Shown piece after piece: positions 2,532 to 28,501 of a DNA stretch of 64,000 nucleotides. The notes below the pieces were generated by a model. The model made no database searches. It worked only from the letters and a program-made list of their open reading frames with translations, and was not told the DNA's origin. Origin of the DNA: Fusobacterium perfoetens. GTDB lineage: Bacteria > Fusobacteriota > Fusobacteriia > Fusobacteriales > Fusobacteriaceae. How positions within the stretch are numbered: position 1 is the stretch's first letter; each line of letters begins with the position of its first letter. Both the position numbers and the translations under genes were made by a program. The stretch covers positions 1 to 64,000 of the forward strand of contig NZ_JADYUD010000008.1 in the NCBI RefSeq assembly GCF_021531595.1. The letters are read 5' to 3'.

Positions 2532-2560
2532 TTGACTATTAATTGAAAAAGATATATACT
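2532..2560 (+). promoter_or_regulatory. Promoter of the small AbrB-like gene
   Basis: TTGACT (2532-2537) and TATACT (2555-2560) are separated by 17 bases. The leader after it contains a 7-bp hairpin, AAAAGCG (2565-2571) with CGCTTTT (2583-2589), immediately upstream of the ribosome binding site GGGAGG (2601-2606). Confidence 0.75.
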
Positions 2561-2612
2561 ATTTAAAAGCGTACAATAATAACGCTTTTAAGAGGAGCTT
2601 GGGAGGTCTTTT

Positions 2613-2792
2613 ATGAAATTAAAAGATATCAAAGCTGTTAATTTTAATAGAAATGGTTCAGGGAGCATATCAGGCAGAATAATTTTAAAAAAAGAGTGGC
2701 TTGAAGATATGAATATAACACCAGATGAACCGTGGATAGAATTAAACTATGATGAAAAAATAAAAAAAATTGTCATAGAAAAGAAAGATTAA
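2613..2792 (+). CDS. Small AbrB/MazE/SymE-like swapped-hairpin protein
   Basis: A 59-residue gene with its own promoter and a strong GGGAGG site 6 bases before the ATG. The protein begins MKLKDIKAVNFNRNG. A GSISGRIILKKEWLEDMNIT core follows, then a short strand pair ending KIKKIVIEKKD. This glycine, basic-strand, Lys-Glu-Trp-Leu arrangement resembles the AbrB/MazE DNA-binding half-domain and, in the WLE-M/G pattern, the SymE-type proteins. A 59-residue length allows a single swapped-hairpin domain that would dimerise. No toxin gene of the MazF type is adjacent. Function is unknown; a transcriptional regulator, an orphan antitoxin or a SymE-like protein are all possible. The family call rests on motif shape only. 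Confidence 0.65.
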   Translation: MKLKDIKAVNFNRNGSGSISGRIILKKEWLEDMNITPDEPWIELNYDEKIKKIVIEKKD

Positions 2793-2801
2793 CAGTTAGA
2801 T

Positions 2802-2924
2802 CCCATTTCCAACCAACACAGTTAATAACTGCTTTCCTTATTGGCAGTAAGGAATGTCAGTTGAAAATGGGGCAGATATGTGTATAAATACACTCTGACA
2901 AGTATATTATACAATATCTGCTCC
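2802..2924 (+). ncRNA. Candidate structured RNA between the AbrB-like gene and the outer-membrane barrel
   Basis: Bases 2802-2871 can fold as a three-way junction. The closing stem pairs CCCATTT and CAAC (2802-2813) with GTTG and AAATGGG (2860-2871), with one mismatch. Inside are a short hairpin, CAGT (2819-2822) with ACTG (2828-2831), and a 7-bp hairpin, TTCCTTA (2834-2840) with TAAGGAA (2848-2854). Bases 2869-2879 can alternatively pair with 2914-2924 in a second long hairpin that continues TGTATA/TATACA (2881-2886, 2908-2913). The two folds compete for the GGG run at 2869-2871. No T tract follows, so this is not a terminator. I do not recognise a known riboswitch class. Confidence 0.4.
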
Positions 2925-2971: not shown

Positions 2972-3655
2972 ATGAAAAAAGTTTTATTAGGTTTATTTGC
3001 TTTATCAACTGTAGCAATGGCTGCAGAAACAAATCTTTATTTAAGAGCAGGGGCTGATTTAAACGGAGAATTTGATACTGTTTCATATTATGATCTAAAA
3101 CTTAATAAAGATGAGGCTGATGATTTTTCTTGGGAAATAGCTGTTGAAGCTACAAGAGAAATTTATCCAAAAGTTGAATTAGGACTTGGATTAGCTTACC
3201 AAAAACATGGAGACCCTAAATCTAGTAATGATTTTGTAGAATTTGATGGTTTACCAGATATTATTTTTGATACAAAATTTGAAATGCCTGGATATACTTC
3301 AATTCCATTATATTTAACAGCGAAATATAATTTTGATGCAATTAATAATTTTGTACCATATGTTAAAGCAAATTTAGGATATTCATTTAATGATGGAGAT
3401 GGAGATTTCAAAATGTCAGGGTTAAGTGAAGATGGTACATTAGAAGGGAAAGCTAAAGGAAATGTTAAAATAGATGATGGGTTATATTATGGAATTGGTG
3501 CAGGATTTGAATATAACAATTTCACTATGGATTTAATGTATCAAGTTAATGAAGCTGAAGCAGAAATAACTGTTTCTGACTTAGATGCAAAAACTAAAAA
3601 AGATTATGATTATTCAAGAGTAACATTATCATTTGGATATAAATTTAATTTCTAA
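2972..3655 (+). CDS. Outer-membrane beta-barrel protein (about 25 kDa)
   Basis: A 227-residue protein with a signal peptide (MKKVLLGLFALSTVAMA, cleavage likely after AMA) followed by alternating hydrophobic/polar strands with turns rich in Gly, Asp and Asn. It ends in YKFNF, the C-terminal aromatic residue recognised by the BAM machinery. The length fits an eight-stranded OmpW/OmpA-like barrel or a fusobacterial outer-membrane protein of the porin-like superfamily. The start has a strong GGAGGGAG ribosome binding site. The specific substrate cannot be inferred. Transcription could come through the structured region upstream, since no clear promoter stands directly in front. Confidence 0.8.
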   Translation: MKKVLLGLFALSTVAMAAETNLYLRAGADLNGEFDTVSYYDLKLNKDEADDFSWEIAVEATREIYPKVELGLGLAYQKHGDPKSSNDFVEFDGLPDIIFDTKFEMPGYTSIPLYLTAKYNFDAINNFVPYVKANLGYSFNDGDGDFKMSGLSEDGTLEGKAKGNVKIDDGLYYGIGAGFEYNNFTMDLMYQVNEAEAEITVSDLDAKTKKDYDYSRVTLSFGYKFNF

Positions 3656-3677
3656 TATTTATATTAAAGAAAACATG

Positions 3678-3709
3678 AAAGAAAGCTGAATTTTTGGCTT
3701 TCTTTTTTT
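3678..3709 (+). terminator. Intrinsic terminator of the outer-membrane barrel gene
   Basis: AAAGAAAGC (3678-3686) pairs with GCTTTCTTT (3697-3705); the stem runs directly into a T tract to 3709. Confidence 0.85.
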
Positions 3710-28167: not shown

Positions 28168-28243
28168 GGTCGCATAGCTCAGTTGGGAGAGCACCTGCCT
28201 TACAAGCAGGGGGTCATAGGTTCAAGTCCTATTGTGACCACCA
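28168..28243 (+). tRNA. tRNA-Val (anticodon TAC)
   Basis: A 76-base cloverleaf with acceptor GGTCGCA pairing TGTGACC (one G-U pair), the anticodon stem CCTGC/GCAGG with loop CTTACAA, the T-arm GGTTCAAGTCC and an encoded CCA. Confidence 0.95.
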
Positions 28244-28247
28244 TTAT

Positions 28248-28324
28248 GGGGGTGTAGCTCAGTTGGTTAGAGCGCCTGCCTGTCACGTAGGAGGTCGCGA
28301 GTTCGAATCTCGTCACTCCCGCCA
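28248..28324 (+). tRNA. tRNA-Asp (anticodon GTC)
   Basis: A 77-base cloverleaf with acceptor GGGGGTG/CACTCCC, anticodon loop CTGTCAC, G discriminator and encoded CCA. It lies 4 bases after tRNA-Val. Confidence 0.95.
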
Positions 28325-28331
28325 TAATGAT

Positions 28332-28407
28332 GCTCAGATAGCTCAGTCGGTAGAGCAGGGGACTGAAAATCCCCGTGTCGGTGGTTCGATTCCGCCTCTG
28401 AGCACCA
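28332..28407 (+). tRNA. tRNA-Phe (anticodon GAA)
   Basis: A 76-base cloverleaf with acceptor GCTCAGA/TCTGAGC, anticodon stem GGGGA/TCCCC with loop CTGAAAA, and encoded CCA. Confidence 0.95.
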
Positions 28408-28427
28408 TGTACAATTTAATTTCGGAG

Positions 28428-28501
28428 GGCGATGTCGCCAAGTGGTAAGGCAGAGGTCTGCAAAATCTCCACCACCAGTTCGAATCTGGTCGTCGCCTCC
28501 A
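28428..28501 (+). tRNA. tRNA-Cys (anticodon GCA)
   Basis: A 74-base cloverleaf with acceptor GGCGATG/CGTCGCC (one G-U), anticodon loop CTGCAAA, U discriminator as required by CysRS, and encoded CCA. Confidence 0.95.

Follow-up and report, generated by a model that had tools for sequence, protein, structure and literature searches.

Results

Layout of the locus

The window analysed here is a 64,000-nt stretch of Fusobacterium perfoetens DNA. Between rplT and a gene for an outer-membrane β-barrel protein (OMP) it contains a gene for a 59-aa protein and, directly behind that gene, a structured RNA of about 120 bases (2800–2924). The features discussed below are:

2532–2560, + strand: σ70-like promoter, TTGACT-17-TATACT; 10 of 12 positions match, which alone is not above chance
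2563–2591, no strand assigned: inverted repeat TTAAAAGCGT-9-ACGCTTTTAA with perfect 10-bp arms; putative operator
2613–2792, + strand: 59-aa AbrB-fold protein (phrog_2329), from open reading frame, profile match and model
2800–2814, + strand: segment 1, the 5ʹ strand of helix P1 (AUCCCAUUUCCAAC), starting 7 nt past the stop codon
2820–2857, + strand: P2/P3 insertion within P1 (three-way junction), found only in the window and genomes G001 and G003; P3 has a compensatory U-A to C-G change
2860–2871, + strand: segment 2, the 3ʹ strand of P1; its GGGG (2868–2871) doubles as the start of P4
2868–2924, + strand: P4 hairpin with conserved apical loop (ACUCUGACAAGUA), from folding, covariance model and covariation
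2917–2924, + strand: segment 3, the 3ʹ strand of P4 (UCUGCUCC), which can pair with the downstream Shine-Dalgarno (SD) sequence
2957–2963, + strand: segment 4, the SD region (UGGAGGG) of the OMP gene
2972–3655, + strand: outer-membrane β-barrel protein (PF13505, E 7e-12), the cargo in the window genome

The region 2793–2971 folds at −49.8 kcal/mol (z = −5.3), and none of 200 shuffled sequences folds as well. A terminator scan found no terminator-like site between 2793 and 2972, in agreement with the original prediction for this DNA; the nearest sites are at 2487–2512 and 3677–3706. The RNA sits ahead of the next gene's SD, as anticipated for a possible 5ʹ leader. The synteny behind rplT is different in every relative looked at, and hence no empty site can be defined. 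Elsewhere in the window are an L20 leader (RF00558; 1171–1303, + strand), a lysine riboswitch (RF00168; 8682–8858, − strand) and a cluster of four tRNAs (28168–28498, + strand).

The promoter was originally described as the small gene's own consensus promoter. The match exists, and relatives have a TTGAC promoter at the corresponding place, but chance alone would give about nine matches of such quality over the region scanned. A hairpin over the ribosome binding site was also proposed; the repeat arms (2563–2572 and 2582–2591) instead lie upstream of the SD of the 59-aa ORF (GGGAGG, 2601–2606). Most AbrB-type promoters have an inverted repeat around the −10 box; in most phage relatives, repeats similar to that of the window flank this box and end 10–20 nt before the start codon. 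Because an equivalent repeat flanks the −10 box in most relatives, the window repeat resembles an operator in the DNA more than a hairpin in the RNA. The repeats differ in sequence from locus to locus, as would be expected for operators of an autoregulator.

The upstream protein

An AlphaFold2 model of the 59-aa protein has a pLDDT of 91 and the element order E-E-H-E-E. The AbrB N-domain, C56, SpoVT and Sso7c4 are among the matches in a fold search with this model, each with E>1 and none individually significant; the model and the kind of fold matched make the AbrB-type fold proposed earlier likely. The best PDB sequence match is 3o27 (E 0.005). The phrog_2329 profile matches the window protein at E 2e-13 and relatives at down to 1e-18, and MazE Pfam matches occur only below the cut-off, in relatives. 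The SymE_toxin family (PF08845) matched neither the window protein nor its relatives at E≤1, which leaves the earlier suggestion of kinship to SymE unsupported, and with it any SymE/SymR-type logic. A scan bearing on an antisense SymR found only weak minus-strand promoter-like matches, at chance level.

A search for related loci with the 59-aa protein as query gave no useful yield. Clostridioides difficile phages and plasmids have an AbrB relative and lack the RNA. A second AbrB-like gene of the window genome belongs to a prophage (G000:C17:10217-10387; L011), where it precedes terminase-like genes; a terminator-like hairpin lies behind it, in place of an RNA of the window type.

An uncatalogued RNA family

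Searching Fusobacteriaceae DNA turned up the RNA in G001 and G003, with 81–84% identity over 107 bases, directly behind a protein 51% identical to the window protein; weak matches at further loci have the same ORF–RNA layout. Covariance modelling across relatives had been named in the original prediction as a check. At E≤0.05, model R1, built from eight sites, detected the RNA in 16 of 61 family genomes, at 20 sites in all; this Fusobacteriaceae set includes Ilyobacter and a Cetobacterium record. At E≤0.01, 20 of 98 Fusobacteriota genomes have the RNA, at 24 sites; relative to the 20-site list, five sites from another family of the order were gained and one fell below threshold. The covariance model also finds copies in Fusobacterium phage phiFN37 and an Ilyobacter polytropus plasmid, although DNA BLAST of the RNA against phages and plasmids gave nothing useful. 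A pattern search found the RNA in nine IMG/VR contigs; the pattern of the copies that precede dehydrogenase genes (see below) gave no useful result in viral contigs.

Rfam 15 has no match over 2800–2924 at the gathering score and no significant match below it, and none over 12 related loci at E≤0.05. A literature search found nothing bearing on the module. The RNA is a previously uncatalogued family, of a known kind.

Two helices that share a strand

The three-way junction (2802–2871) and the long hairpin (2868–2924) are both present and compete for the GGGG at 2868–2871. P1 and outer P4 are thus mutually exclusive, as predicted, and both covary. Lack of compensatory base changes in orthologous regions had been named as half of the case that would count against the original prediction. 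Such changes are present in G001 and G003, so this half falls away: in P3, UUCCUUA/UAAGGAA in the window is UUCCCUA/UAGGGAA (U-A to C-G), and in P4, GGGGC/GCUCC is GGGGU/ACCCC (C-G to U-A).

Across the family, 88.7% of P4 cells are paired, with 41 double-change cells compared with 13.4 after shuffling (0/500 as many) and 5–15 when the strands are slid; these numbers lean upward, given the relatedness of the sequences and the use of an alignment (A7) that had been fitted to the P4 structure. P1 was not part of the covariance model, though it uses the same middle strand as P4. It forms 132 of 160 pairs, compared with 117.5 ± 2.8 in permutations (0/500) that ignore relatedness. In cross-pairing energies, P1 and outer P4 were each matched by none of 5000 permutations, which likewise ignore relatedness. 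P1 is invariant within the window, G001 and G003, and hence its support comes from the wider family. The most conserved sequence is the P4 apical loop (consensus about ACC-NNN-GCAAGUA), whereas the stems vary. The linker between the RNA and the SD is also conserved.

Segment 3 is complementary to the GGAGG SD at all 20 sites measured, with duplexes of −4.5 to −10.5 kcal/mol. The SD is GGAGG at every one of these sites, so permutation (1430/5000 and 1449/5000 as good) and covariation say nothing on its pairing; moreover, C-rich stretches would pair with GGAGG wherever it occurs. By simple segment sums, P1 with upper P4 and P5 is more stable than full P4 at 18 of the 20 sites, by up to 10 kcal/mol; the lead is only 0.3 kcal/mol in G003, and in the G023 dehydrogenase leader full P4 comes out ahead. 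In the window, full P4 (the open fold) is computed to be more stable (−40.7 versus −36.0). G-U mismatches outnumber A-C mismatches (26 versus 7), which is weak evidence for RNA since column composition alone predicts 1.7:1. The constant strand and position speak for an RNA rather than a DNA element.

In AbrB-type copies segment 1 starts 4–12 nt after the upstream stop codon. At the window stop codon, AACAGUUA (2791–2798) can pair with UAACUG (2826–2831), which would be a pseudoknot with P1; the pairing in G001 and G003 is AAUAGUU/AACUAUU, a compensatory change relative to the window.

Upstream ORFs and cargo genes

An AbrB-like ORF (about 56–61 aa; phrog_2329 where tested) is directly upstream of the RNA at 18 of the 24 sites. 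One of these ORFs, in G058 (L108, C1:1738329-1738501), is frameshifted, and the RNA there scores the same as in G054. Two sites have a ribbon-helix-helix (RHH)-type ORF in its place (G017 C133 and G036 C105; L112 and L118), assigned from a PF01402 match (E 2e-5) in G036 and from CopG/NikA-like matches that are all sub-threshold in G017. The remaining four (G002, G005, G023 and G033; L105, L106, L110 and L113) have a D-2-hydroxyacid dehydrogenase gene (PF02826) behind the RNA, followed in G002 and G005 by what we take to be a GltS-like gene. In these dehydrogenase copies, a short ORF of about 5–17 codons with a good SD replaces the regulator gene, and in some it stops tens of nucleotides upstream of the RNA. 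G002, G005 and G033 have no AbrB-like match. These three genomes and the two RHH sites make it unlikely that the AbrB-like protein is an obligatory RNA-binding partner. A further dehydrogenase locus, in G034, has the upstream DNA and lacks the RNA.

The cargo of AbrB-type copies consists mostly of antirepressors (Rha PF09669, KilAC PF03374, AntA PF08346, Bro-N PF02498 and P22_AR_N PF10547), often behind an intervening 41–99-aa ORF. Exported-looking proteins are encoded instead in the window, G001, G003 and G046. In G001 and G003 the module follows a MerR-like gene and precedes one for a 115/116-aa exported protein, and is not between rplT and an OMP gene. The protein and the RNA thus form a unit that is kept together at another locus, ahead of another gene. 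The RNA is well conserved and independent of the OMP gene; specificity for that gene is ruled out. An OMP gene does follow in the window, in keeping with the original prediction of a module for an outer-membrane protein, but cargo in relatives is mostly phage antirepressor, with dehydrogenase at four sites and the exported protein in G001 and G003. At the G001 and G003 loci (L008 and L009), exported, mostly helical proteins of 112–116 aa flank or follow the module and match no family above cut-off.

Discussion

What is the function of an RNA with two competing helices between a small regulator-like gene and such varied cargo? We propose that it is a portable, cis-acting 1-2-3-4 attenuator-type leader that controls translation of the next gene and is probably set by translation of the upstream ORF, a reading from sequence to which we assign a probability of about one half. 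The shared-strand helices, their covariation, their position and the SD-complementary segment at 20/20 sites were established by computation. Segment 2 would pair with either segment 1 (P1) or segment 3 (outer P4). With P1 formed, segment 3 would be free to pair with the SD (segment 4), and translation would be low; with full P4 formed, the SD would be open. Of the possible triggers, we favour a ribosome that completes the upstream ORF: by occupying segment 1 it would allow P4 to form and expose the SD, and would thereby couple the next gene to the small upstream protein. This trigger may be modulated, or its place taken, by a factor that binds the conserved apical loop of P4. In phages, antirepressor synthesis is what the module would gate; in the window genome the module is joined to an OMP gene.

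The 1-2-3-4 layout, with segment 1 just past the stop codon, fits an attenuator-type leader. Furthermore, the dehydrogenase copies keep a short SD-bearing ORF upstream in place of AbrB. Several observations count against this reading: the open fold is the more stable one in the window, and the two states are nearly equal in G003; the SD is invariant, which puts its pairing beyond covariation; and some dehydrogenase leaders have a short ORF that ends tens of nucleotides upstream. Ribosome coupling alone leaves the conserved apical loop unexplained; the loop suggests an additional binding partner.

That loop is the starting point for an alternative that we consider possible but doubtful, namely that a metabolite or host RNA-binding protein on the apical loop decides between P1 and P4 regardless of upstream translation, as in a riboswitch. 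The contrast between the loop and its variable stems, the RHH-type upstream proteins and the dehydrogenase leaders, three of them in genomes with no AbrB-like match, all point this way. However, such a switch does not account for why the RNA starts so close behind the upstream stop codon, and within so narrow a range of distances, and antirepressors, exported proteins and a dehydrogenase have no common metabolic theme. More tentatively still, the RNA might be a new class of switch that senses a ligand or host factor, by which Fusobacteriota phages gate antirepressor synthesis and hence prophage induction, and which hosts have co-opted for an OMP and a 2-hydroxyacid dehydrogenase. It is unlikely that the RNA is instead cut from the operon transcript and pairs with antirepressor mRNA elsewhere. 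Its place upstream of antirepressor genes resembles that in P1-type immI regions, and it has anti-SD-like CUCC segments, but the SD and start codon close behind it and the conserved linker point to action in cis, and copies also precede dehydrogenase and exported-protein genes.

Action on transcription is similarly improbable, whether through a put-like RNA that renders RNA polymerase resistant to termination or through a terminator/antiterminator. Two adjacent hairpins, one with a conserved loop, placed early in a phage operon would suit such an element; against it, no U-run follows P1 or P4 at the listed sites, which rules out a transcription terminator, and the terminator scan of the window copy was negative. 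We regard as very improbable a DNA site, either a folded single strand or an operator, for recombination or binding of the AbrB-like protein. The AbrB fold binds DNA and P4 is a long palindrome, but the stems vary freely with pairing kept, the element has a constant orientation and position with respect to both genes, and AbrB-like matches are missing from G002, G005 and G033; the G-U excess points the same way, weakly given the column composition. Some phage annotations name relatives "toxin SymE". We reject SymE/SymR itself on account of the missing Pfam match and the position of the RNA, and a SymE-like type I toxin with a regulatory RNA is scarcely credible: the RNA is sense and downstream, and in G058 it scores as well as in G054 even though the ORF is frameshifted.

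An attenuator-type leader of this kind would be of interest for several reasons. The RNA defines an uncatalogued family with ties to a lysogeny-type operon of phages; for the phylum concerned, to our knowledge, little post-transcriptional control has been described. If the RNA senses a signal, prophage induction would be linked to that signal, as would an outer-membrane protein in the window genome. The same leader is found on unrelated cargo; hence, the trigger can be sought with a simple reporter.

The closest parallels are translation attenuators of the ermC/cat leader type, in which, likewise, segments 1-2-3-4 behind an upstream ORF pair in alternative ways and segment 3 can mask the SD of the next gene. 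Here, however, the upstream ORF usually encodes a DNA-binding-type protein of 56–62 aa and not a stalling leader peptide, and there is no antibiotic, a conserved apical loop, and both phage and chromosomal cargo. Riboswitches with translational expression platforms share the conserved structured leader, the mutually exclusive helices and the possible SD sequestration, but the RNA family of the window has no known ligand or Rfam match and little sequence conserved outside the P4 loop. In the c4 RNA–icd–ant immunity module of phages P1 and P7, an antirepressor gene likewise has a structured RNA ahead of it within one operon. The c4 RNA is produced by processing of the transcript and is of the antisense type, whereas the conserved linker and SD here suggest action in cis. 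SymE/SymR also places a small swapped-hairpin-type protein beside an RNA, but that RNA is antisense and 5ʹ, not sense and 3ʹ as here, and the window protein lacks the SymE Pfam match. Lastly, the AbrB-fold proteins of mobile elements (C56/C68 of Sulfolobus virus-plasmids; phrog_2329) resemble the 59-aa protein in size, fold and mobile-element origin; we know of no structured RNA partner for them.
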